Below are positions 25,215 to 39,070 of a DNA stretch of 64,000 bases, piece by piece (positions within the stretch are counted from its first letter, which is position 1; every line of letters starts with the position of its first letter). This stretch comes from Deltaproteobacteria bacterium (lineage in GTDB: Bacteria > Myxococcota_A > Polyangia > Polyangiales > Ga0077539). The notes beneath the pieces were generated by a model, which saw nothing but the letters and a program-made list of their open reading frames with translations, was not told the DNA's origin and did no database searches. The stretch lies in assembly GCA_030694465.1 (NCBI GenBank), contig JAUXYJ010000006.1, forward strand, positions 1 to 64,000. Direction: 5' to 3'. A program made the position numbers and the translations under genes.

Positions 25215-26975
25215 CTACCAAGTGCGAAGCTGGTTCAGCCCACCGTTGCCCGTGCCTGCAGGAGGCGTTGGCGCTGTGACCGTTGGGGTGGTTGGCGTCG
25301 CGCGAGGGGGCTCTGGGGTGGTGGAAGGGGTGCGTTCTACCGTGGGCTGTGTCGTCGGCCGCTGGGTCGGCCGGGGTTCTGGCGCTGGCTGTACGGTTGC
25401 GGGATTTGCAGTGGGCAACAGCATGCGATTGCGGGTCTCTTCGAGAGAAATCCCTGTTGGATTGCCCGCGACCTGCGTGTTGCCTCTGCGCTGCGACGTG
25501 GTGCGTGTCGTGCCGCGCGTCGACCCTTGCGATCCCGAAGAGGGCTCAACTCCAGAGAGGGCCTGGACGGTCGCGGGCACAGCCACTGGGGGTTGTGCGG
25601 CAGGGACCGTCGTTGGTGTGGGCGTGGGCTGCGTCGCGGTGTTTTGCGCGGCGAGTGTTGAGCCCGACGTGCCTGAGACCTGAGGTGTGCTAGTCGACGA
25701 GCTACCCGAGCCTCGGCTCACCACGACACCAAGCACACCGAGCGAACAGAGTGCAAAAATGCCTGCTGCGATGCCCAGCGCGAGACCCCGTGAGCTCTTC
25801 TTGGGAGGTGACTGATCGCTCGCAGTCTGCGAGAAAATCCGCGCGTGATCGTCGGGCTGAAGCTGATAATCGACGCTCATCGACGAGGGGCGTGGGTCCA
25901 GAGAGAGCACGCCCGAGTGCTGGCTGCTCCCGTCAAAACTGCCACTCGCGGGCCCCGACTGGGTGCGCTGAAGCTGCAGGTCTTCGCCCGCAAAGAGCCG
26001 GTCCAAATCCGCGCTTCGCTCGGGGAGCATCTGGCGAAAATACGTGGCCAGGGTCTGGTCGTTCGCGCGGTAGCCCTCTTCGCGGTAGACGGCCCACAAG
26101 AAGTCCGCAAACTCAGCGCACGACCCGATCCGATCGTCGCGGTTCTTTGCAAAGACACCGCCCAAAAACGTATCGATGGCCACTGGGACTTCGGGCCGGA
26201 CCGAGCGCACCGAGGGCGTGGGGTCTTCGGTCACCATGCGCAGGATCTCGAGCTCGCTCTCGCTCTTGTACAAGCGTTTGCTGGCGAGACATTCCCACAG
26301 CATGACGCCGAGAGACCACACGTCGCTGCGTCGATCGAGGTTACGAACGCCACGCGCTTGCTCGGGGGACATGTAACCAAACTTGCCCTTGAGCGTGTTG
26401 GTCACGGTCGCTTGTTGGAGTCTTTCGCGGGCTTTTGCCACGCCAAAGTCAATCAGCTTGACCACTCCATCGCGGCTCACGAGCACATTCGAAGGGGTCA
26501 CGTCGCGGTGGACCAAATGGCGAAGCTCGCCACGCTCGTTGCGCAGCTCGTGGGCCGCATGCAGGGCCTCGGCGGTGCGCGCGATCATGTAGATCACCAC
26601 GTCGAGGGGGATGTGTTGTCCGTGCGCGCGTGCGGCCTTGAGGAGCGTCAGGATGGACTCCCCTGCGACAAACTCGAGCGCGATGTAGCGGCCCTCTTTG
26701 TCTGTGCCCCAGTCCAGAATATCCACCACGTTGGGGTGTTGGAGCCCCGCGGTGATAAACGCCTCGTCAAAGAAGCTCGCTGAAAACTGTGGGTTGCGCT
26801 CCAGGTGCGGGTGCATGCGCTTGATCGCGACCAGCTGCCCTGTGTGAGGTCCGCGGATGGTCCGCGCGAGAAACACGCTCCCCATGCCGCCGGCGGCGAG
26901 CTCTTGGATGGTCTGATACTCGCCTTGCGACGGACCGGTTGGAGCAGATGCTTGTGCGATTTCGGCCACCATCAT
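25215..26975 (-). CDS. Hanks-type Ser/Thr protein kinase with C-terminal membrane helix
   Basis: The start at 26975 (ATG ATG, with CGAGGG just upstream) gives 586 residues. The kinase domain spans about 20-285: Gly-rich loop LAAGGMGSVFLA, catalytic Lys in VAIKRM, HRDVTPSN catalytic loop, DFGVAK metal-binding loop and MSPEQARG. A Ser/Gln-rich linker follows, then one hydrophobic helix (about 405-425) and a Thr/Pro-rich extracytoplasmic tail. It should phosphorylate Ser/Thr of unknown targets and may sense an envelope signal. It heads the TPR-lipoprotein run. Confidence 0.9.
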   Translation of the reverse strand: MMVAEIAQASAPTGPSQGEYQTIQELAAGGMGSVFLARTIRGPHTGQLVAIKRMHPHLERNPQFSASFFDEAFITAGLQHPNVVDILDWGTDKEGRYIALEFVAGESILTLLKAARAHGQHIPLDVVIYMIARTAEALHAAHELRNERGELRHLVHRDVTPSNVLVSRDGVVKLIDFGVAKARERLQQATVTNTLKGKFGYMSPEQARGVRNLDRRSDVWSLGVMLWECLASKRLYKSESELEILRMVTEDPTPSVRSVRPEVPVAIDTFLGGVFAKNRDDRIGSCAEFADFLWAVYREEGYRANDQTLATYFRQMLPERSADLDRLFAGEDLQLQRTQSGPASGSFDGSSQHSGVLSLDPRPSSMSVDYQLQPDDHARIFSQTASDQSPPKKSSRGLALGIAAGIFALCSLGVLGVVVSRGSGSSSTSTPQVSGTSGSTLAAQNTATQPTPTPTTVPAAQPPVAVPATVQALSGVEPSSGSQGSTRGTTRTTSQRRGNTQVAGNPTGISLEETRNRMLLPTANPATVQPAPEPRPTQRPTTQPTVERTPSTTPEPPRATPTTPTVTAPTPPAGTGNGGLNQLRTW

Positions 26976-27199
26976 CCCTCGTGCAGGGGTCTGGCAACGA
27001 GCCAAACACAACACTGCAGACCGCTGAGTGTATGAGTCCAAGTGCAAACGAACAAGCAGTCACGTGCGAATTTGGCCTTCGAAGCCACGAATCAGCGCGT
27101 CGGTGTTTGTGATCCGTGAGGGCCGCCAGAGTGCACGGGATCTCTCGGGTCACCAGCGCCACGTTGCGCTGTGCAGAGATCACGAGCGCGAGCGATCTG

Positions 27200-28393
27200 T
27201 CAGTGAATTGCCTCGAGAATCACCGCGATGCCCTGGCCACCACCGATGCACGCCGAGCCCACTCCGTAGCGCGCATTGCGACGACGAAGCTCGTGTACGA
27301 GGTGTGTGGTGATGCGTGCGCCCGACGCGCCCAGTGGGTGACCCAATGCGATCGCGCCGCCGTTGACGTTGGTCTTGGCGCGGTCGAGCCCGAGCTCTTT
27401 TTCGACCGCGAGATACTGCGGTGCGAACGCCTCGTTGACCTCGACGAGGTCCATTTGCTCGAGCGTGAGACCGGCGCGTGAGAGGGCCGCGCGGATCGCG
27501 GGCGCGGGGCCGATGCCCATCAGGTTGGGGTCGACGCCAGCGACGCCCCAGTGGACCAAGCGCGCGAGGGGCTTGAGGTTCTTTCGCTTGGCAAAATCCG
27601 CGGTCGCGAGCACGAGCATCGCGGCGCCATCGCAGATGCCCGAGGCGTTGCCGGCGGTGACAACGCCGTCTTTCTTAAAGACTGGCGCGAGCTTGGCGAG
27701 GGCCTCCATGGTGCTCTGCGGGCGCGGGTGCTCGTCGACTTCGAAGCGCACGGTGCCTTTGCGGCTCTGGATCTCGACTGGGGTGATCTCGGCTTTGAAG
27801 TAGCCCGCTTCGTGTGCCGCGGCCCAACGCGACTGAGACAACAGCGCGTAGCTGTCGCATGCAGCGCGGTCGATCTCGTACTTCACGCTGAGGTTCTCAG
27901 CGGTCATCGCCATGGGCGTGTTGCAGTACGAGTCTGTGAGCGCTTCCCACAGCGAATCTTCGAGCTTGGGTGCGCGGCCGAATGCAAAGCCTTTGCGACC
28001 ACCGCGCAGCACGTGGGGCGCCTGCGACATGTTCTCTGTGCCACCGACGAGCACGCACTCGCCTTCGCCCAACAGCAGCTGCTCTGCGCCGTTGATCACG
28101 GCCTGAAAGCCAGATCCGCACAAGCGACCGACGTTCATCGCGGGGACCTCGATGGGCAGTCCGGACTTCAGCCCGATGTGGCGCGCGTTGTAGATCGCGT
28201 CTGCGCTTGTCTGTTGCACGTTGCCCACGATCACGTGTGCGACGTCTTTCGCAAGGTCTACGCCCGAATCCGCGAGGGCCGCTTTGGCAGCGATCACGCC
28301 GAGATCGTTTGCGCTGAGCGACTCAAGCGCGCCGCTGAGTGTGCCAAAGGCCGTGCGTCGTGCCGCGAGGATTACAATTTCTGGTCGTGCCAT
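27200..28393 (-). CDS. Acetyl-CoA acetyltransferase (thiolase)
   Basis: Thiolases catalyse acetoacetyl-CoA formation or the last step of beta-oxidation. The 397-residue protein has the nucleophile Cys92 in MNVGRLCGSGFQA, His352 in GGAIALGHPLGASG and Cys382 in ACIGGGQG, with the expected length. It lies downstream of a MaoC-type hydratase on the same strand, which fits fatty-acid or polyhydroxyalkanoate metabolism. Biosynthetic versus degradative role cannot be decided here. Confidence 0.93.
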   Translation of the reverse strand: MARPEIVILAARRTAFGTLSGALESLSANDLGVIAAKAALADSGVDLAKDVAHVIVGNVQQTSADAIYNARHIGLKSGLPIEVPAMNVGRLCGSGFQAVINGAEQLLLGEGECVLVGGTENMSQAPHVLRGGRKGFAFGRAPKLEDSLWEALTDSYCNTPMAMTAENLSVKYEIDRAACDSYALLSQSRWAAAHEAGYFKAEITPVEIQSRKGTVRFEVDEHPRPQSTMEALAKLAPVFKKDGVVTAGNASGICDGAAMLVLATADFAKRKNLKPLARLVHWGVAGVDPNLMGIGPAPAIRAALSRAGLTLEQMDLVEVNEAFAPQYLAVEKELGLDRAKTNVNGGAIALGHPLGASGARITTHLVHELRRRNARYGVGSACIGGGQGIAVILEAIH

Positions 28394-28472: not shown

Positions 28473-29318
28473 TCAGAGCTCAAGCGTGTCGATCGCACAG
28501 TGCGATAGCACGACTTCGTTGCGCTCTTTGACGCTGGTGCGTGCAAAAATCCTGTTGCCTTCGCGCCAGCCCTCGGTGATCAGGGTCTCGCCTGGCCACA
28601 CGGGTTTGCTAAAGCGCCCCTGGATCGCGCGGATGCCATCGCTCTTGCCCCCGAGCGCTTGGCTTACGACTGCGCGAACCATAAACCCGTAGGTCGCGAG
28701 GCCGTGCAAGATCGGGCGGCCTTCAAATCGGCTCACCAGCGGAAACGCTGGGTCTGCGTGCAGCGGATTGAAATCACCCGAGAGCCGATAGAGCAGGGCT
28801 TGCTCGTCGAGGGTGCGCTCTTCGAAGACGAAGTCTGCGTCGCGTGAGGGGGCACCTGGGCGCTCTTCGCTGGGCTTGGTTCCGGTGCTCACGCCGCCGA
28901 TGCCCAAGAAGAGAATGCCCCAGGCGGTCTCGCACACGAGCTCACCAGTAGTTTTGTCAACGGAGCGTGTTTTTACTGTCGTTTGCGTCATGCGCTTGAG
29001 GTCATAGAGCCCCTCGACCACCGCGGTTGTGAGCAGGGTCGCTGCGGGCGCGAAGGGCCGGTGCATGATCACGCGCTGGGTGCCATGGACCACTTGGTCC
29101 ATCGGGCCCTGGATCGCCTCGATGGCCTTCATCACGGGCTCAAAAGCAGGGACCACCGAGAAGGACGGGAGCACGCTGGGCCCTCGGCCTTCGTAGAGAT
29201 AGTCGAGCTCGCTTGTCTTGGCTCCGACGCCAAGCGCGTAGAGCGCGGTGTCTCTCCAGCTGTAGGTAAACTCTGTGGCGGGGCCCTCTCGGCCGACTGC
29301 ATCAAGTGCGAATGTCAT
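28473..29318 (-). CDS. MaoC-family (R)-specific enoyl-CoA hydratase
   Basis: From the ATG at 29318 the protein has 281 residues, the double hot-dog size of peroxisomal type-2 enoyl-CoA hydratases. The C-terminal half carries the hydratase-2 motif YRLSGDFNPLHADP followed by PILHGLATYG, with catalytic Asp and His. The N-terminal half begins TYSWRDTALYALGVG, also typical of the family. It would hydrate trans-2-enoyl-CoA to (R)-3-hydroxyacyl-CoA. The gene is 79 bp upstream of the thiolase and 28 bp after the presenilin-like gene. Confidence 0.87.
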   Translation of the reverse strand: MTFALDAVGREGPATEFTYSWRDTALYALGVGAKTSELDYLYEGRGPSVLPSFSVVPAFEPVMKAIEAIQGPMDQVVHGTQRVIMHRPFAPAATLLTTAVVEGLYDLKRMTQTTVKTRSVDKTTGELVCETAWGILFLGIGGVSTGTKPSEERPGAPSRDADFVFEERTLDEQALLYRLSGDFNPLHADPAFPLVSRFEGRPILHGLATYGFMVRAVVSQALGGKSDGIRAIQGRFSKPVWPGETLITEGWREGNRIFARTSVKERNEVVLSHCAIDTLEL

Positions 29319-29346
29319 GGCAACGACGGGGGTGTTCGCACGCCCT

Positions 29347-30201
29347 CTACCCTGCGTCAACGCCTGTCACGCTGCGCATCGCGACCCGAACGATCGCGGC
29401 CACGAGGGCGAGCCAAGCGACCGTGGTCGCGCGGCGGTCTTCTCGTGCGACGCGTCTCACTTCGGCGTGAAAAATCACTACGAAAAATCCAACGAAGGGC
29501 AGCGCGGGCAGAGGCCTACGCAGGAGCAAAACAGCGGCGCCTGCTGCGATCAATCCGAGCCAGACCGCGAGGCTCATCCGCGCGATGCTCAGGCGATGCT
29601 TGACCGCGGCCGCGAGGTAGAGCCCTGCAAAGATCCCGTCGCCGACGCCAAGCATGGGCTCGATGTGTCTCTGCGCGTCCACCGCGGCGCTCACCGCGAG
29701 GACCCGCAACCACCGTGGGTCTGGCGTCGTCGCGAGGGCGTGCGTGGGGCCCTCTGGCGAGAGCGCGCTCCACAGGTCCACGGCGCTCGAGAGCAACGCG
29801 ACGACCAGCAAATGGCTCGCAGCGGGCACGCGAGATCCCACCGCGACGCCCACCGTCGAACCCAACAATAACACCGCCGCGCTCGAGGCAAACGCAGCCC
29901 ACGGGTCTAAGTTAGGTGATAATACAAATCCCGCAATTGCCAGCAAAATTGCAGCGAGAATACCAATCCCAGTGTGCGCAATCGTCGGGGTCTCTCTGGC
30001 GCGCGAGGCCACCCAAGCGGCTACGCACGTCGCGGTGGCACAGCACCCATAGGCGAGGGCAAGGGATGCGAGCGGGTGTGCTGGCAACCAGACCGCGCAC
30101 GCATAGAGCAGCGCAAGCAGCGCGATGGCGGACGTGGGCGCCAGGGTGCGCAGGAGCTCGCGGACGGGCGCGCTCAAGGGCGCGCGTTGCTCGGTGCGCA
30201 C
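29347..30201 (-). CDS. Presenilin-like GxGD intramembrane aspartyl protease candidate
   Basis: The GTG at 30201 has AAAGG eight bases upstream and gives 284 residues with eight or nine hydrophobic helices. Three blocks match presenilin/SPP signatures in order. The first is AVDLWSALSPEGPTHAL (140-156, Asp142), resembling the presenilin helix-6 pattern YDLVAVLCPKGP. The second is LGVGDGIFAGLYL (184-196, Asp188), the GxGD motif. The third is PLPALPF (230-236), the PAL motif. Asp142 and Asp188 would be the catalytic pair. The Tyr of the usual YD is Val here. The start overlaps the upstream lipoprotein gene by 28 bp, so translation is probably coupled. Substrate unknown. A sequence profile search is needed to exclude chance. 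Confidence 0.78.
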   Translation of the reverse strand: MRTEQRAPLSAPVRELLRTLAPTSAIALLALLYACAVWLPAHPLASLALAYGCCATATCVAAWVASRARETPTIAHTGIGILAAILLAIAGFVLSPNLDPWAAFASSAAVLLLGSTVGVAVGSRVPAASHLLVVALLSSAVDLWSALSPEGPTHALATTPDPRWLRVLAVSAAVDAQRHIEPMLGVGDGIFAGLYLAAAVKHRLSIARMSLAVWLGLIAAGAAVLLLRRPLPALPFVGFFVVIFHAEVRRVAREDRRATTVAWLALVAAIVRVAMRSVTGVDAG

Positions 30202-33137
30202 TCGATGGACCTTTCGCCTCGTGGACCTGTTGGGCGCACGCGCAGCTCTCCGCCGTGTGCCTCGAGATCGAGGGGGCCGAGCCGTGAGATCGTCAGCTGA
30301 TTGCGTGCGTTTCCGAGCAACGAGTGCTCGACCGAGACACGGCGGATGCACCAACTGGCGTGATCAAAGCTGAGCTCAGTGCGCACGCCGTCGTGCCCGG
30401 TGAGCTCGGAGTTAGACGGCCCCACCGAGGCAAAAATTCGCACATTGTGTGCGTCCGCTTGTGTGATCGCGAGTAGAGAATTTGCTGGGATTTCTTCGTG
30501 ATAGTCACTGCAAATTCGCAGCCGTGTGGGGACCGGTGAGAGCGGCCGCGCCGGGGTCTCTGGGCTCTCGATAAAGTGCAGCGTGTGTGGGGGGCGTGCG
30601 GGCAGAATGACTAAGCCCTCGCGGGCTCCTTCGATGGCCAACGCACGCCACTCAAGCTCGCCTTCGGCCCAGACGAAGCTGCGGGTGGACTCGATCCTGC
30701 CGTTGCTGTCTACCCGCACGATCACGTCGGCGCGGCGCTCGCGGATGCTGCGCGGGTCGATGGTGCGCAGGCCTGTTGTGTCGTCGAGCGCGCCCGAGGC
30801 GTAGTGCAAGACGAAGTGCGTGGCGTCCCGGGCGTAGAGCGCGCGCAGAAGAAAGCTGAAGCCATGGCTCTGTGGGCGCGTGAGCCAATCGGTGGATGTC
30901 AGCGCCGTGGGTGGGTGGCTGCGCGTGAGGGCCGCGAGATCACAGCGCTGGGGTGTCATCGCGTTGCGCGTGGCAAAACACCGCTCAATCAGCGCGGTCT
31001 GTCCGCTGACCCAGCGGGCAAACCACTGGGACGAAGACACAGGAGCCTGCACGGACTCAAACGTGGGGAAGGCGCCGGTCGTGCGCGCGCTGAAGGGGCC
31101 CTGTGCGTTGTGACCGCCCCAGCTCCATCCGGTGGGTTGCGTCTGGATCCATCCTCCGGTGCCCATGCGATGGACCGGCGCACCCTGGGCTTGGACCTCG
31201 GTGGCGCCGCAACGATACGACGGAAAGCTCATGCCCGAGGGGCTCGCGCTGGCCGTCACCGCGGCTGCGCTGTGGGGCGTGACGGCCGCCGTGAGGACCC
31301 TCGGAGGGGGCTGACCGATGAGCGATTCGCTGGCCCAGACCATGAGGTTCTCGACGCTGCATGCGTAGGCCGTACAGAACACGCGGGGCGGGGTCTGATG
31401 GGGCAGGGGCGCGACACGGTGTGTGCTGTGCGGTTCGTGTGCAGCCAGACGCACGGGTTGCCAATGGATGCCGCCGTCTTCGGTGATCTGTGTGTGCGTG
31501 GGGTCTGTGCCGACGGCGACTCCGCGGAGGGCGGTCGCCATGGCGAGCTCTCGGGTGTTCGGTGGCAGAGGCCGCACGTTCAGCAGTTCGTGTGCGTTTC
31601 CCAAGACAAGATAGCGCTCTTGCCCACGGCTCCCGAGCGCCCAGAAGGTGCCGTCGGAGGTAAACGCGCCGCGCTCCATCGCGATCGAGGGCCGCAGGAT
31701 GCGAGAGCCCCCCACACGATCGCCAATGCGCTGTACGCGGAGGGGCACCGCGAGGCCTGTGCGCTGCAATCCCTCGCTGCTCTGAAACACAACGTAGGGC
31801 CCATACGCTGCGACAAACGTCGCGCGCCGGTCCACGTCCACGTTGTGCCAAGAGGTCCCGTCAAAGTGGCACCAGCGCGTGCTGTCGGCCGAAGCGCGCC
31901 CGTCGCAGGCCGAAAACTGCCAGATGCCTACGCCGTCATTCGAGGTCGCGAGGCTGCCCCACGCGAGCATCGACGGAGACGTGGGCAGCGCCAACCAGGG
32001 CTCGATGCCGTCGCCCACGTAGAGCGCCGCTTGGTGAGCCATGGTGGCGTCGCGGCAGATGGCCAGCAGACGATCACGTAGCGGCAGATAGCGACAGAGC
32101 AGCCCGGGAGGATCTACCCGCTGGAGGTCTTCGCCCACGCGCGAGATCCCAAGCTGATCTTCGCCATAGTGGTGCCCTCGCATCAGCGCGCCCAGTCGCT
32201 CGTTCGAGGGCCTCGGCGAGAGAGAGACATACACTCGGTCGCCCAACGCGAAGCTGTCGCGCATGAGCATTTTGGCGCGCGGCGCGGGGCCATCGCGCAG
32301 CAGCGCTTGCCTCAATTGCTGCGCGTCTGGGCCTCGATAGTCCCAGCCCGCGGCGATGCCCTCAAACGGCACAGGAGCACCGTGGGCCGTGACTCTCCAC
32401 TGCGAGTCTCGGGTCCGGACGACAAATCCCTCGCCCTCAGGCAGCACCTCAAGCGCGGCTTGCCCGCCGAGTGACATGGGCTCCCAGCCGAGACCACCGT
32501 CACGCGTGCGCAACAATTGCCCTGGTGAGAGCACCGCGAGGCCAAAGCGATCGGTCACAAATCCCGCATCAATAATCAGTCCATTGGCAAAGTTAGCTCG
32601 ACGCAAGCCCTCGCGTGAGCCGATCCACAGGTTGCGTGATTCGTCTCGGACCGTGAGCCTCCCTGTGCTCACGTAGGCGCTCTCTAAGTGCGCCCCGTCG
32701 GTTTGCCCTACGCGCGTCATGGGACCGGTGAAATAGCCGCTGTGATAGAGGGCGCCGTCGCGCGCTGCGAAGAGCCACCCGTCTGTCACACGCGCGCTCC
32801 CGAGCAGCCCTCCGTACGCGATGTCCGAGGCAAACGTGAGGGTCTCTTCACGCATTCGTGCGCGCATTCCGCCGTAGAGCACATAGAGCGTCCCGTCGGC
32901 CTCGATGCCCTCAGCTTGCGAGAGGGGTTCGAGCAATCCATCCGAGCCATAGATCTGCCAGCGGTCCGCGGGTTGTTGGGGCGCAGAGGGAAGAAGAGCA
33001 GAACGCGAATCACGATTTTCTGTGCGAATTTGCTGTGTCAATCGTGATGAGCGCCAAGCGACTCGCGAGCACGACCACAGCGCTGAGCCAGCCAGCACAG
33101 CCGCTGCGAGAGATCGTGAGTGAGTGCAGAGCCACAT
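30174..33137 (-). CDS. Large lipoprotein with Asp-box (BNR/YCF48-like) motifs
   Basis: The 987-residue protein starts MWLCTHSRSLAAAVLAG and has a lipobox-like ALWSC, so it is probably exported and lipid-anchored. It has repeated beta-propeller-like stretches with Asp-box patterns such as LRTRDGGLGWEPM and ITEDGGIHWQPV, found in sialidase/YCF48-type propellers. Enzyme residues of sialidases were not recognised. The 3' end overlaps the presenilin-like gene by 28 bp, and a Ser/Thr kinase lies 54 bp upstream on the same strand. Function unknown. It is a candidate partner of the membrane protease. Confidence 0.75.
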   Translation of the reverse strand: MWLCTHSRSLAAAVLAGSALWSCSRVAWRSSRLTQQIRTENRDSRSALLPSAPQQPADRWQIYGSDGLLEPLSQAEGIEADGTLYVLYGGMRARMREETLTFASDIAYGGLLGSARVTDGWLFAARDGALYHSGYFTGPMTRVGQTDGAHLESAYVSTGRLTVRDESRNLWIGSREGLRRANFANGLIIDAGFVTDRFGLAVLSPGQLLRTRDGGLGWEPMSLGGQAALEVLPEGEGFVVRTRDSQWRVTAHGAPVPFEGIAAGWDYRGPDAQQLRQALLRDGPAPRAKMLMRDSFALGDRVYVSLSPRPSNERLGALMRGHHYGEDQLGISRVGEDLQRVDPPGLLCRYLPLRDRLLAICRDATMAHQAALYVGDGIEPWLALPTSPSMLAWGSLATSNDGVGIWQFSACDGRASADSTRWCHFDGTSWHNVDVDRRATFVAAYGPYVVFQSSEGLQRTGLAVPLRVQRIGDRVGGSRILRPSIAMERGAFTSDGTFWALGSRGQERYLVLGNAHELLNVRPLPPNTRELAMATALRGVAVGTDPTHTQITEDGGIHWQPVRLAAHEPHSTHRVAPLPHQTPPRVFCTAYACSVENLMVWASESLIGQPPPRVLTAAVTPHSAAAVTASASPSGMSFPSYRCGATEVQAQGAPVHRMGTGGWIQTQPTGWSWGGHNAQGPFSARTTGAFPTFESVQAPVSSSQWFARWVSGQTALIERCFATRNAMTPQRCDLAALTRSHPPTALTSTDWLTRPQSHGFSFLLRALYARDATHFVLHYASGALDDTTGLRTIDPRSIRERRADVIVRVDSNGRIESTRSFVWAEGELEWRALAIEGAREGLVILPARPPHTLHFIESPETPARPLSPVPTRLRICSDYHEEIPANSLLAITQADAHNVRIFASVGPSNSELTGHDGVRTELSFDHASWCIRRVSVEHSLLGNARNQLTISRLGPLDLEAHGGELRVRPTGPRGERSIECAPSNARP

Positions 33138-33190: not shown

Positions 33191-34675
33191 TCAGCGCAAG
33201 ATCGCGAGGACTGACACCGCGAGCGACGAAACAAACAACGCTGTACCGCCCACAAACATCGAGAAGCCAAGCCACGGATTGCGGTCGACAAAGCGGCCTG
33301 CTTCACGGGTCATGCGCTTGGTCATGGTGACAGGGCATTGGACGTGGATTTTGCCAGTCAGAATGTCCTGCAGGTAGTTCACCAGCTCGGTCGCGTTCTG
33401 AAATCGCAGGTTGGGATCACTCTGCAATCCCTTGGCAAACAAGTGCAGATACTCAGCGGGCGGGAGCTGCGCGCCCTGGTACCACCCGTGGGTGGTCACG
33501 GCCGATGCGCCATCAAGAACACCCGCGATCATCGCGGCCACCGTGGTCTTGTCGTACAAATAGTGCCGCAGACTCAAGAGCTCGTGCAGCAAGACCACCG
33601 CGGCGAAGAGGTCGGTGCGCTCGTCGATTTGGTCGTTGAGCCCACGCGCCTGCTCGGGTGCCATGTACGCGGGTGTTCCGATCAGTGCGCCGTGACGCGT
33701 CGTAAACGCGCGGCCCCGGGGGCTCTCGGTGATGTCCTTTTCGTCGGTGTCTCCGCCGCGTTCGCCGGCCTTCTTGGTGGACTTGGCGATGCCCCAGTCC
33801 ATGAGCACCACCTCGCCGTAGCGTCCCACCATCACGTTGGCGGGCTTGATGTCCCGGTGGACAATGCCGTTGGCGTGCGCGTACTGAAGCGCGCGCAAAA
33901 CCCCCATAAACACCTCGACGCGGTACTCGACCGAGTACTTCGCGAGGTACTCTGCGTTGCCCTCGCGGAGCTTGTCGATCACGCCTTCGAGCGTCTCGCC
34001 CTCGAGGTATTTCATCACCAAAAAGAAGCGCCCCGAGCTGTCGAGACCCACATCATGGATGGGCACAATGTTGGGGTGCTCAAGCTGCCCCACGATGTGC
34101 ACTTCGTCGACGAACCGCGCGATGGCCGCGGGGGAGAGTGACTCGGTGTACATGCGCTTGACCGCGACCCTTCGGCCGATGTCTTCGTCGAGCGCGAGGT
34201 CGACTTCGCCCATGCCGCCCACGCCGAGCTGCTTGACCGAGGCGTAGCGCTCTTTGTTGCGAGGGATCAGGCGCAGCCCATGGTCGTCTTCTTCGACCGA
34301 GGGCAAGACCGTGGTGACGCGCCCGCTGAGCGTCTGTGTGGGCGAAGCGGTCGAGAGCTTGCTGGGCTCGGAGTCGGCCGCGAGCGTTGCGTCAAACGGA
34401 CTGTGCCCATGGTTTTCTTCGTTCTCGTTGCGTGTACGCAACACCTCGGGGAGCACGGCGCTCGCGGGCGTCATCGGTGGGCTCACAACGGGGACCACGC
34501 GCGGGGCGCTCACAGGAGAGCTCGAAGGAGCAATCGACGGAGGGGCGTCTTGATCGTAGCCGACGGTCTGTCTCAGCGAGTCGAGGACCTTGGCTGGCTT
34601 TTGAGCCACCGGAGGGGGCGCGTTGTCGTACCCCATCGTCTGCGCGAGGGGATTGATGGGAGGTTTGTTGCTCAT
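33191..34675 (-). CDS. Ser/Thr protein kinase with duplicated N-terminal QTxGYD motif and C-terminal TM helices
   Basis: The ATG at 34675 gives 494 residues. The N-terminal tail has two similar segments, AQTMGYDNAPP (11-21) and RQTVGYDQDAPP (35-46), then a Pro/Ser-rich linker. The kinase domain (about 145-410) has LGVGGMGEVDLA, VAVKRM, HRDIKPAN, MDWGIAK (DFG replaced by DWG, Asp kept) and MAPEQARG. The C-terminus has hydrophobic helices (FSMFVGGTALFVSSLAVSV). It is probably membrane-anchored and active. It leads a minus-strand run that continues into the lipoprotein, the presenilin-like protein, hydratase and thiolase. Confidence 0.9.
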   Translation of the reverse strand: MSNKPPINPLAQTMGYDNAPPPVAQKPAKVLDSLRQTVGYDQDAPPSIAPSSSPVSAPRVVPVVSPPMTPASAVLPEVLRTRNENEENHGHSPFDATLAADSEPSKLSTASPTQTLSGRVTTVLPSVEEDDHGLRLIPRNKERYASVKQLGVGGMGEVDLALDEDIGRRVAVKRMYTESLSPAAIARFVDEVHIVGQLEHPNIVPIHDVGLDSSGRFFLVMKYLEGETLEGVIDKLREGNAEYLAKYSVEYRVEVFMGVLRALQYAHANGIVHRDIKPANVMVGRYGEVVLMDWGIAKSTKKAGERGGDTDEKDITESPRGRAFTTRHGALIGTPAYMAPEQARGLNDQIDERTDLFAAVVLLHELLSLRHYLYDKTTVAAMIAGVLDGASAVTTHGWYQGAQLPPAEYLHLFAKGLQSDPNLRFQNATELVNYLQDILTGKIHVQCPVTMTKRMTREAGRFVDRNPWLGFSMFVGGTALFVSSLAVSVLAILR

Positions 34676-34960
34676 GAGGACGAGGACTCCGGTGATGCGC
34701 GAGCGAAGAAGAGCGACGGATTGCGAACGATAGTGACACACCGCTTGCGTTGGGAGATGTGCTTGCGATTCTTCACAAAGCGAGACCCACACGAGACGCC
34801 ACGGTGCGCAAGGTGGCTAGCGGATCATCCGGCGAGCGCGTTGTGTGCATCGTGAACCGTCATTCACTCTGCAAATATCCCAGCCAAACAGTGACGAACG
34901 ACGGCAGCAATCGGTCTAACTTCGCGTAGTGTCTACCCAGACAGGATCGCCCAACAGCCT

Positions 34961-37900
34961 ATGCTTCGAGCACACTCTCTCTTCGGTTTTGCCCTCGCCT
35001 CTGCGGGTCTCTCGGCCCTTGTATTGGCTCCCTCCACGGCGTGTGCGCAGGGACAGAGCGGTGTCACGCTGGGTGCGAATCTCAGCGTGGGCGCAACGAG
35101 CAGCGCAGTGGCAACGCGCGCGCAGGCCAACGCGTCGCTCGCGGTAAGGGGCCCCACGCGCAGCGAAATCGCCGCGATTTTTGGGCAGGTTCCGCTGCGC
35201 GTGAGCGCCTATGTGGGCGCGGGTTGGACCTCGTCGTGGGAGCGCCCGAGGCTCGATGGCTACGCGGTTGAGCTCGGTGGATCGCTCGGTGCGTGGGCCA
35301 CGCGGTATCTCGCGATCGAGGCCCGCGGGAGTTATCTCGGGCTGCTCCACCGCGTGAGTGACGCGAACCTCGATGGTCGCGCGGACACGGCGGTCCCGAC
35401 GCTCAATGGCCTGCTCGCGATGGGACAACTGCGGCTCAGGTTGCTTGAAGACGAGCTGAAGCTCCGCCGCGCATGGAGCCTCACGGTGGGCGGCGGCGCG
35501 TTTGTTCCGTTGGCCAACACGGACACACGAGGGGTCGCGCCGGTGCTCGAGGCGTCGATCGCGCGGCACGTCGGTGTGCTCGACCAGCATGGCTCTGCGG
35601 CGGATATTTCGGTGGAGCTTCGTGCGCGAACGGGTCTCGGTTCGCTTGCAGATTACCAGAGTATTATCGCGTCGTTGGGTGTCGCATGGGATGGCAACCA
35701 GCCCACTGGGTCAGCGCCAAGCCACAGCGTCGGTTACCGACCGGGGCACACCGCGGGCCTCGAGGCGCTCGTCGGTGGCTTCTTCTCGCCCTTCGCGAGA
35801 CCCATGAGCAGCGCGCTCTTGAACGGCGCAGGGGGCGGCGTGGCGGCGAGCGCGGGGATTGTATTTTCACCTGGATTTGAGCTCATCGCGCGAGGTGGTT
35901 ACCTCGGCCGTGGCCCTGGGCGCACCGGCGATGACTGGCTGCACATGGGCTTCGTTGAGGGCGGGCTGCGTGCACGTTGGTACCTGTTCTTTGCAGAGGG
36001 CGATGGCGGGATCACCGCGCCCTTCGGCACCTATCGAGATCAGGTCCAGACCACCCCGCATGTGAGCGCCGCGTTGGGCCTTCGCGTGCCCTTCAACGCC
36101 CCCAACGAGCCCGGATTTCGCTTTGTGACCGCGGTGCGCGGCCGCGTGGGTCTGAGCCCCGAGCGCACGATGGACGGGCTGTTCTTTACCGCGGGCTTCG
36201 AGTTCGAGGGGGGCGATCATCACGCGGCGTTTCCGCAGCCCGTGCGGCTGTCCGCGCCGAGCGTCAGTGGGTCGCTCGCGGCGCGTCCGTTGTCGCCCTC
36301 TGGGCCTGGCGCGCGTGGAGCAGGGGCGATCACGCTCTTTGAGCCAGCGCGTATTCCGCTAGCGATTTCTCTAGGGATTCAGGGTGGCTACATCGCCCCC
36401 ATGCGCGGGATCCCGTTGCAACGCACGCAGGGTGAGCTCTCGGTGACGGCGAGCTACACGCCCTGGCATTGGCTCGCGCTCGACGCGCGCGCGGCGTACA
36501 TGGGCGCAGCGGGGCGCACCGAAGACCTCGACAGTGACGGAACACAAGACGTCGTTCGCCCAGGATTTGGCGGGGTCTTGCTCTCTCTCGGGCCGCGCTT
36601 TCGCTGGCTCACTGACACGTACAGCCAGCGCACGGGGTGGAGCTTTGCGCTCGCCGGCGGCGTGATGTTGCCCGCGGTGGGGAGTGCCACCGTGCGCGGC
36701 GTGGGCGCGACGGCCGAGGCGGCGATCGCGCGCGAGGTGGCCTTCTCGGTTGGACCACGGAGCGTCTTCGGAGTCGGGCTTGAGCTGCGAGGTCGCACGG
36801 GATTTGGCGCGTGGGGCGACTATCAATCGGTGCTCTTTGGAGCGAAATTATGGTGGGAAGGCGACGTCGCGTTGGGTCGCTCGTCCGCAGAGGCCTCGGT
36901 GCCAGGATGGCGTCCGGGACACACGCTGGCTCTGGATGGCGGCGCGGCGATTTTTCCGCTCGGGACACGTCGCAGCAACGGCGCGAACTATTTTGGCACC
37001 CTCGGTGCGCACGTTGGGCTGCGCGCTGGACTTGTGTTTTCGCCGGGATTTGAGTGGTCCCTGCGGGGCGGTTGGCTCCATCGTCCGGGAGCAGGCACAC
37101 GCGATGACCTCGCCGCGCTCACCCTTGAGACGGGGCCACGCATGCGAATGGGCTGGATTTCGGCTCGCGCAATGGCCGGCTATGCCTCGGTCATCGGCAC
37201 GCACCGAGACGAGGTCGCCAGCGTGTTCTATGCCGGCGGTGGCGTCGAAGGCCGCTTCGCCATCACCGAACACTGGCGGATTTTGCTGGGTCTCGAGGGT
37301 CGCTTCGCCCTCGCCAGTGAGCGCGCGCTTGACCACATCGCGTTTACGCTGGGCTTCGAGTTCGAGGGAGGGCCTCACCGCGCTGTCCCGTTTGCGAGCG
37401 CGCCGAGCACACCTCCGCCGCGCACGCTCCCATCGTTTGAGCGCCCCAACGTCACGCCAAACCAGGCGCCTACGCCCGGAGTCAACGTGGTGACTCAGCG
37501 ACCCGGCGACGTCGCCGGAGGTGCCACGGTAGGTGCCACGGTGGGTGCCTCGGTGGGCGTCATTGCGCCCGTGCGCATCGCGCTCTCTACGGGTATTTTT
37601 GCAGGGCCACGTGGCATTGGGACGCACGACCTCGACGGCATGGGCGGCGCGCATCACCTCACGGTGGGCTGGGTCCCGAGGCGCTGGTTGTCTCTTGAGC
37701 TCAACGGCGGGATTATGGCGAGCGCGGGCCATCGGCAAGACCGCAACGGGGACGGCGTGGTCGAGCTCGCGCGCGATGGGCTGGTGAATTTCACGCTCAC
37801 CGCGGGCCCTAGGTTTCGCGTGCTCGTCGATGATTTTGCGCGCTACGGCTGGAGCTTCGCGCTGGCCGGCGGCGTGATGGGTGGCGCTGCCGGAGTGGGA

Positions 37901-39070
37901 CCCTTGGGGGAGGTCGCGATCGGACGACACCTGGCCGCGATCACGGACTCGCACATGGCGCTCGAGTTTGGCGTCGAAGCGCGGGCACGCTTGGGCTGGA
38001 TTCCGCAGGCGAATACCACGGGATCTCTCGGTGAGTTCGCTCCCTCGATGACCGTCGCGCTCACCGCTGCGTGGGAGGCCAATGTGCACCGCAACAGCGC
38101 GCCCATGCACGACGCGCAGCTCGGTGAGACGCTCTCGCTTGAGTTCACCCCTGGGCTCGCGCTCGGCGGCGCTCTTCGCAACGGTCGCGCCCTGGGCTCG
38201 AGCATCAATCACCTGGCCGCACGCACGGGGCTTGTGTTTTCGCCGGGCTTTGAGTGGAGCGCGCGCGCTGGCTACGCGTTTCGCTCGGGCGAAAAAGACA
38301 CCGCGCAGTTCGAAGCGCTCTTTGCCGAGAGCGGCCCGAGGTTTCGTTGGGGATGGGCCTACGCAGAGCTCGCCGCGGGCTATGCGGGCTCGTTCGGTGC
38401 GTACCGCGACGAGGTCAACGGGTCCGCCATCGCGAGCGCCGCAGCGGGCGTGCGCTTTGGTCTCACCGGTGTGGGTCATCACTTTGGCGGATATGCTGGC
38501 GTGCAAGCGCGTGTTGGGCTGAGCGACGAGCGCGCGTACGACTCGTTGAGCCTGCAATTGGGCTTCGAGTTCGAAGGTGGACGCAGGCAAGCGGCGCCGT
38601 TTCCGCGGTGGTCTCTGCCAGAGTCACCGCGCGCGAATATCCCGACCCAGCGGCACGAGCTCGTGATCCCGAGGATCCCGACGCAGGTGCAAGCCGGCGG
38701 ATCTGTAGGTGTACAAATTCCCACGCAGGTTGAGCTCAACCTGGGCGGCACGGCTTCGCTCTCGGTGTTTGGCACCCAAGCCCAGCGCACGGTGCTTGTC
38801 CCAGGCGCCACGGTCGACAGCGCACCTTTTGGCTCTGGAATTTTGCTCACCGTTGAAGAGCTCAATGGTCTGCTCCCCCAGATGGACCCCTCGGTACGCG
38901 CGCTCCACGTTGAGCTCCGCACGGGCTCGGGAGCCCAAGCCCCCGCGCTCGAATCCGCCCTGCGCGCGGTGCTCAGCGCGCGCTACGGTGCGAGCCTCGT
39001 CGTGACCTCTCGCGTGGCCATCGCGGCGAGCGGCTCGGGGCGCTTTGAGCTGACCCTCTCTGCGCGCTAG
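34961..39070 (+). CDS. Giant protein of three tandem outer-membrane-like repeats
   Basis: The 1369-residue protein starts with a signal peptide (cleavage near STACA, residue 29). Three units of about 390-400 residues follow, each closing with GFEFEGG (FEFEGG starts at residues 413, 799 and 1202). Every unit contains FSPGFE, a GWSFALAGG or similar strand, and a Dx[DN]xDG loop (at 134, 522 and 927). Strand spacing and Gly/Tyr/Arg content suggest beta-barrels. Linkers are Pro/Thr-rich. The last 130 residues (VEELNGLLPQMDPSV) form a separate C-terminal domain. No family was recognised. The divergent neighbour is a Ser/Thr kinase. Confidence 0.75.
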   Translation: MLRAHSLFGFALASAGLSALVLAPSTACAQGQSGVTLGANLSVGATSSAVATRAQANASLAVRGPTRSEIAAIFGQVPLRVSAYVGAGWTSSWERPRLDGYAVELGGSLGAWATRYLAIEARGSYLGLLHRVSDANLDGRADTAVPTLNGLLAMGQLRLRLLEDELKLRRAWSLTVGGGAFVPLANTDTRGVAPVLEASIARHVGVLDQHGSAADISVELRARTGLGSLADYQSIIASLGVAWDGNQPTGSAPSHSVGYRPGHTAGLEALVGGFFSPFARPMSSALLNGAGGGVAASAGIVFSPGFELIARGGYLGRGPGRTGDDWLHMGFVEGGLRARWYLFFAEGDGGITAPFGTYRDQVQTTPHVSAALGLRVPFNAPNEPGFRFVTAVRGRVGLSPERTMDGLFFTAGFEFEGGDHHAAFPQPVRLSAPSVSGSLAARPLSPSGPGARGAGAITLFEPARIPLAISLGIQGGYIAPMRGIPLQRTQGELSVTASYTPWHWLALDARAAYMGAAGRTEDLDSDGTQDVVRPGFGGVLLSLGPRFRWLTDTYSQRTGWSFALAGGVMLPAVGSATVRGVGATAEAAIAREVAFSVGPRSVFGVGLELRGRTGFGAWGDYQSVLFGAKLWWEGDVALGRSSAEASVPGWRPGHTLALDGGAAIFPLGTRRSNGANYFGTLGAHVGLRAGLVFSPGFEWSLRGGWLHRPGAGTRDDLAALTLETGPRMRMGWISARAMAGYASVIGTHRDEVASVFYAGGGVEGRFAITEHWRILLGLEGRFALASERALDHIAFTLGFEFEGGPHRAVPFASAPSTPPPRTLPSFERPNVTPNQAPTPGVNVVTQRPGDVAGGATVGATVGASVGVIAPVRIALSTGIFAGPRGIGTHDLDGMGGAHHLTVGWVPRRWLSLELNGGIMASAGHRQDRNGDGVVELARDGLVNFTLTAGPRFRVLVDDFARYGWSFALAGGVMGGAAGVGPLGEVAIGRHLAAITDSHMALEFGVEARARLGWIPQANTTGSLGEFAPSMTVALTAAWEANVHRNSAPMHDAQLGETLSLEFTPGLALGGALRNGRALGSSINHLAARTGLVFSPGFEWSARAGYAFRSGEKDTAQFEALFAESGPRFRWGWAYAELAAGYAGSFGAYRDEVNGSAIASAAAGVRFGLTGVGHHFGGYAGVQARVGLSDERAYDSLSLQLGFEFEGGRRQAAPFPRWSLPESPRANIPTQRHELVIPRIPTQVQAGGSVGVQIPTQVELNLGGTASLSVFGTQAQRTVLVPGATVDSAPFGSGILLTVEELNGLLPQMDPSVRALHVELRTGSGAQAPALESALRAVLSARYGASLVVTSRVAIAASGSGRFELTLSAR

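Follow-up and report, generated by a model that had tools for sequence, protein, structure and literature searches.

The window, meaning the whole 64,000-nucleotide stretch of DNA analysed here, carries at 29347-30201 of its minus strand the open reading frame of a 284-aa polytopic protein. The frame ends in a stop codon at 29347-29349 and has its proposed start at a GTG (30199-30201), with a likely ribosome-binding site, AAAGG, at 30210-30214 on the same strand, 8 bases 5' of the GTG. The plus-strand frame at 29347-30201 is interrupted by stops. Codon use scores 0.169 for the 284-aa frame, at most 0.131 for the antisense frames, and 0.22-0.35 for six neighbouring genes. By itself codon use discriminates weakly, and the case for a real gene therefore rests on conservation among homologues. 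On that ground, the frame is a real gene and a member of a real protein family. A sequence-only reading of the region had described a multi-helix protein of 284 residues with three blocks in order and had given no strand; the open frame is confirmed and lies on the minus strand. The host genome is a 7.2 Mb draft of 105 contigs, in which the gene is single-copy, no second copy being found at E<=10.

Upstream, on the same strand, is a gene for a 987-aa lipoprotein-like protein (30174-33137), called a lipoprotein by eye from its N-terminus and without a Pfam match at E<=0.01. As had been noted earlier for a large lipoprotein gene, it overlaps the start of the 284-aa frame, by 28 bases (30174-30201). 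Downstream, also on the minus strand, are a gene for a MaoC-like hydratase (28473-29360), where the MaoC domain was tested, and one that is presumably thiolase-like (27200-28393), going by its sequence type. Two serine/threonine-kinase-like genes, named by eye, lie near the locus on the minus strand (25215-27047 and 33191-34792). A 1369-aa frame on the plus strand (34961-39070) holds, by eye, about three outer-membrane-protein-like repeats and contains FEFEGG three times.

The 284-aa protein contains three blocks in order: AVDLWSALSPEGP, with D142; LGVGDGIF, with G185-x-G187-D188; and PLPALPF, with P232-A-L-P. D142 (codon 29776-29778, minus strand) is the proposed first catalytic Asp, at the position of PS1 D257 and SPP D219. 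D188 belongs to the GVGD block (residues 185-188; 29638-29649, minus strand) and is the proposed second catalytic Asp, at the position of PS1 D385 and SPP D265. The PAL block (residues 232-234; 29500-29508, minus strand) aligns with the PALP of presenilins.

Conservation is measured in an alignment of 34 homologues (A5), whose identity to the 284-aa protein goes down to 21%. Three partial sequences (L010, L024, L042), two near-copies (L006, L059), loci repeating a genome already included, and a fragment (L105) are outside the alignment; both Asp and PAL are present by eye in the partial sequences and near-copies. Residues invariant in all 34 rows are G118, D142, S145, G185, D188, P232, and L234. 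At position 187, 29 rows have G, four have A, and one has T; at position 233, Ala occupies 32 rows and Val the other 2; and the residue just before PAL (231) varies among L, V, I, and M. The distance from D188 to P232 is a constant 44 (34/34). The three blocks are more than a chance occurrence because D142, G185, D188, P232, and L234 are unchanged in the 34 homologues, and, as judged from the sequences, the conservation of both Asp together with PAL points to a catalytic pair and not to a chance motif. The sequence-only reading had called the 46-residue stretch between the two Asp short, but the distance is 44-49 across the 34 rows, and the catalytic D219 and D265 of human SPP are likewise 46 apart (PMC13252537). 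Natural GxAD in place of GxGD occurs in three genomes of one genus (L002-L004) and at L044.

The Tyr of the YD motif is missing from the whole alignment. Residue 141 is A in 16 rows, V in 15, F in 2, and S in 1, so that the loss of the Tyr, noted earlier as a VD in the 284-aa protein, extends to all 34 homologues. If the enzyme is active, V or A must serve at this position. The point bears on a different explanation, that of a binding or scaffold protein that keeps the fold and the residues without proteolysis. Such a protein might lack the Tyr in 34 of 34 sequences and have GxAD or GxTD in 5 of 34, and the Y218A change is described as causing a strong loss of activity in human SPP (PMC13252537). 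Against this, both Asp and the P and L of PAL are constant at identities down to 21%, and replacing the Gly that precedes the second Asp by Ala slows cleavage in PS1 (G384A), SPPL2b, and MCMJR1 (G219A), in the last without abolishing it (PMC2947513), and SPP G264A has a mild effect (PMC13252537). A scaffold is consequently held improbable. By analogy with these mutants, the enzyme of a lineage that keeps GxAD may be slow or tuned in another way.

Profile searches against all PDB sequences (177,635) relate the family to presenilin and SPP. With a profile of 22 sequences, nine of the nine distinct matches at E<=10 are presenilin-1, presenilin-2, and SPPL2A, the best at E 1.3e-4. With 34 sequences, all nine matches at E<=10 are again presenilins or SPPL2A, and the best values improve to E 9.4e-6 (PS1) and 1.1e-5 (SPPL2A). 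The profile appears specific, in that no other protein among the 177,635 sequences is listed at E<=10. The similarity to GxGD families that the sequence-only reading had proposed to seek by profile is thus significant.

The significant part of the match spans GxGD to PALP. The block of the first Asp forms a separate, weaker stretch aligned to the TM6 Asp of PS1 and PS2, with 8.0 bits and an i-Evalue of 17 in PS1, which is not significant alone. It aligns with DLVAVLCPKGP of PS1, where D142 falls on the TM6 Asp and P.GP is in register. In a PDB chain where this Asp reads Ala, the stretch drops from 8.0 to 2.3 bits.

Matches to curated families are weaker. At E<=1, single members match Pfam Presenilin in 8 of 22 cases (best E 0.0017), Peptidase_A22B in 4 (best E 0.063), and EccD in 1, and a divergent group has a Presenilin match in one of its eight members only. 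The 284-aa protein itself scores 13.5 bits (E 0.03) against Presenilin (PF01080), below the cut-off of 34.3, and neither PF04258 nor PF06550 is among the matches listed for it. The archaeal family PF06550 is also absent from the families matched by the 22 members (E<=1) and was found in none of 57 genomes from the phylum, only three of which (G000, G037, G066) are known to hold the presenilin-like family. No presenilin-type model is among the 10 NCBIfam families matched by the 22 members (E<=1). On sequence grounds, the protein represents a new bacterial family within the superfamily and does not belong to PF01080, PF04258, or PF06550, because the YD Tyr is missing in 34 of 34 homologues and the score stays below the Pfam cut-off.

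EccD deserves separate mention. Its Pfam model matches residues 24-155 of the 284-aa protein below the cut-off at E 0.0023, better than the 0.03 of Presenilin, and in VIA superpositions ESX rows reach Z 9.1 over the N-terminal helices. These values could indicate a membrane protein for transport or secretion that resembles EccD and carries the motifs by chance. The match is not general in the family, however, where Presenilin is found eight times as often, and no EccD chain is among the PDB matches of the family profile at E<=10, so that EccD does not rank above presenilin there. The best ESX row has an rmsd of 7.7 A, and this identity is very improbable.

The type 4 prepilin peptidases (A24) are a known bacterial group of GxGD aspartyl proteases and have the GxGD word in common with the protein. 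Their two Asp are described as lying in soluble regions, several helices apart (PMC2947513). Here, the Asp pair is on neighbouring helices and is followed by PAL, and the listed matches of the 284-aa protein (E<=10) and of the 22 members (E<=1) include no A24 family. A prepilin peptidase identity is not supported, and its likelihood is close to nil.

An AlphaFold2 model of the 284-aa protein, made with 11 sequences, has a pLDDT of 78.6 and a pTM of 0.75; the other four models have mean pLDDT values of 57.9-72.4. In Foldseek, its 13 best rows all belong to presenilin or SPPL2a, with probabilities of 0.97-1.00 and E-values from 5.7e-3 to 0.12; there is no match at E<=0.001, and the TM of the best is about 0.4. 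VIA places PS1 at Z 12.8 (176 residues at 3.6 A), SPPL2a at 11.4, and PSH at 11.3. Unrelated helical rows reach 9.6, and for helical models a Z below about 13 may reflect no more than a widespread arrangement. The residues superposed on PS1 are 16-19% identical.

A second AlphaFold2 model was made for the L061 fragment, which is without its first residues (pLDDT 67.1, pTM 0.68; first 50 residues mostly below 50). Its first 22 rows are all presenilin, SPPL2a, or PSH at Z 7.8-12.3 (PS1 12.3, PSH 11.5), and the next row is at 4.5. A clear gap to unrelated rows is seen for this model only, and it is given more weight because such rows reach Z 7-9.6 for the 284-aa model. A superposition on an archaeal presenilin homologue had been suggested as a structural check; PS1, SPPL2a, and PSH are the best matches of both predicted models.

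The model of the 284-aa protein puts D142 and D188 on neighbouring helices, with the PAL block after them. The loop between the catalytic helices (residues 148-185; 29647-29760, minus strand) has predicted strands at 169-171 and 183-185 that are comparable to beta1 and beta2 of PS1. This strand pair is present in both models (135-137 and 148-150 in L061), and its second strand reaches into GxGD. In PS1, the strands are given as 288-290 and 377-381, and L432 before PAL is reported to bind substrate (PMC10290658). About 11 residues separate the two strands in the 284-aa model, and 86 do so in PS1.

Four helices precede the D142 helix in the model and by hydropathy, and one follows the PAL helix in the model; confidence at the N-terminus is 60-79. 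Members of the curated families are expected to have nine helices and to carry the first Asp in helix 6. Lys and Arg are more numerous on the side of the N-terminus, predicted to be cytoplasmic, in 34 of 34 sequences (mean 9.7 versus 3.7), and net charge is greater on that side in 31 of 34. Given this bias, the positive-inside rule, and four helices before D142, the active-site loop is predicted to face the periplasm. The orientation depends on counting helices in a model whose N-terminus is weakly predicted, and helices can be undercounted, as happened with archaeal MCMJR1, whose crystal structure is said to have nine. Topology programs gave MCMJR1 eight, with the Asp in helices 5 and 6 (PMC2947513). 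The mouth of the active site probably opens to the periplasm, in the manner of SPP and opposite to presenilin. SPP is described as inverted relative to presenilin and as cutting type II segments (PMC7366577).

Taken together, these features identify the 284-aa protein as a probable di-aspartyl intramembrane protease of the presenilin/SPP superfamily, at a probability of roughly 0.84. Its assignment follows from two Asp on neighbouring helices with GxGD (exact in 29/34) and PAL (exact in 32/34), from the profile similarity (E 9.4e-6), and from a presenilin fold, the last in predicted models only (PS1 Z 12.8 and 12.3). The candidate first put forward by the sequence-only reading is supported by conservation, profile similarity, and predicted fold. 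In the proposed mechanism, D142 and D188 would keep the catalytic water in place within the membrane. There, a transmembrane segment of the substrate would unwind and add a strand to the sheet of 169-171 and 183-185, with the PAL loop alongside. The protein probably acts as a single chain, like SPP, which is described as needing no partner proteins (PMC2947513). A periplasmic mouth would make N-in substrates likely, and these may be signal-peptide remnants, including those of lipoproteins, and signal anchors. Clearance of such peptides and anchors as the main job is put at slightly under even odds.

Homologues are present in 24 of 37 related genomes. These comprise 13 of 13 in the host's taxonomic family, and the remaining 11 are spread over five other families of the order. 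Among these 37, genomes with the gene measure 4.1-11.1 Mb, most of them over 6, and those without it are mostly smaller (3.1-7.1 Mb). Across the phylum Myxococcota, at least 27 of 377 genomes have a homologue, a lower bound since six candidates per genome were scored and a later search added one more (G285). Among relatives of G134, a genome outside the host's order, 11 of 115 carry the gene, one being G001 of the host's taxonomic family. A pattern search of genome contigs with six sequences found 35 stretches that led to 10 loci, using one narrow pattern. The source records of these loci read Polyangia, Sandaracinaceae (3), Myxococcales (2), Myxococcota, Deltaproteobacteria, Proteobacteria, and 'bacterium'. 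A single-sequence scan of genome contigs gave 111 pattern stretches and no relative, and a plasmid search with one divergent family member as query gave no match. Apart from the plasmid search and the scans of genome contigs, all searches were confined to the phylum, and the range given here is the one within it.

The neighbours of the gene differ between lineages, and no universal partner gene was found; the neighbour clusters are built by single linkage and may lump paralogues. At the 13 loci of the host's taxonomic family, one lipoprotein cluster is upstream in 4, and MaoC and thiolase genes are downstream in 6. In three relatives (L062-L064), large lipoprotein-like genes are tandemly doubled before the presenilin-like gene. 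In f29, another family of the phylum (L087-L094), the gene is directly before smc at seven of eight loci and before ftsY at one, on the same strand. The domains of these neighbours were tested on L091, and the SRP54-type gene is taken to be ftsY from its arrangement. The FtsY and lipoprotein neighbours fit, weakly, a protein that takes part in secretion or in the quality control of membranes.

The families f3, f5, and f9 differ in that seven of their eight loci have a divergent sigma-54 activator nearby and six have a gene of the SspB type (ClpXP adaptor). The SspB-like gene is at L074, L075, L077, L081, L083, and L084, and the activator is missing only at L076, a 4.4 kb contig. Domains of the cluster were tested on L074, whose SspB match is 26.2 bits, just below the cut-off; SspB is near the gene in G014, G020, G027, G034, and G035, with two of the five below the cut-off. 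This arrangement, with the patchy presence of the gene and its bias to large genomes, would suit an active protease for regulated signalling, releasing membrane-tethered regulators and not clearing signal peptides. Sigma-54 activators are numerous in such bacteria, however, and the clusters may join paralogues. Neither the activator nor the SspB cluster is at the 13 loci of the host's taxonomic family, some of them on short contigs, and the SspB gene of the host genome is on another contig. A signalling protease is therefore rather unlikely, and clearance of signal peptides and anchors is kept as the first choice.

SppA-type S49 peptidases are present in 37 of 37 related genomes. The presenilin-like protein is for this reason an addition to SppA, and the idea of an SppA replacement is rejected. 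Why bacteria that already have SppA keep a presenilin-like protein is a question raised by the family.

Presenilin is a membrane-cutting enzyme linked to Alzheimer's disease. Enzymes of the presenilin/SPP type have been described in eukaryotes and, at the biochemical level, in archaea, and have so far been studied mainly there. No report of a bacterial presenilin/SPP protease was found among the matches listed in the open-access literature, as seen from titles and the starts of abstracts. A short-loop bacterial family with no known partners would be a simple model for helix unwinding and cutting by these enzymes. Its natural GxAD homologues would supply variants at a clinically known position, and the family as a whole would be new material on the origin of presenilin.

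The presenilins PS1 and PS2 (PF01080), the catalytic subunits of gamma-secretase, have in common with the 284-aa protein a first Asp followed by P.GP, an LG.GD that heads the next helix, and L-PALP, as well as a predicted strand before GxGD and the predicted fold. They differ from it in having a Tyr before the first Asp and a long inter-strand loop, and in gamma-secretase their partners are nicastrin, APH-1, and PEN-2. In the bacterial protein, with its low identity to PS1, the model places four helices before the first catalytic helix, and the predicted orientation is inverted.

SPP and SPPL proteins (PF04258) have in common with it the Asp-Asp distance of human SPP and the predicted orientation, and SPPL2A is second in the profile search. 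The bacterial protein differs in the missing YD Tyr and in the P.GP after the first Asp, which is presenilin-like. The archaeal MCMJR1/PSH proteins (PF06550) are likewise prokaryotic and compact, with GxGD and PAL, and their fold agrees with both predicted models (Z 11.3 and 11.5). Unlike PS1, PS2, and SPPL2A, PSH is outside the PDB matches of the profile at E<=10.

A further, tentative reading, held at somewhat less than even odds, places the family as a separate and ancient bacterial branch of the superfamily in Myxococcota. Its catalytic blocks would be nearer to eukaryotic presenilin than to the archaeal proteins, its orientation inverted by one fewer N-terminal helix, the long self-cut loop absent, and GxAD fixed in one genus. 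Nature would then have provided a minimal presenilin of one chain, with a possible coupling to secretion (smc-ftsY operon). As read from its sequence and models, the 284-aa protein appears to combine presenilin-like blocks with SPP-like spacing and predicted orientation.
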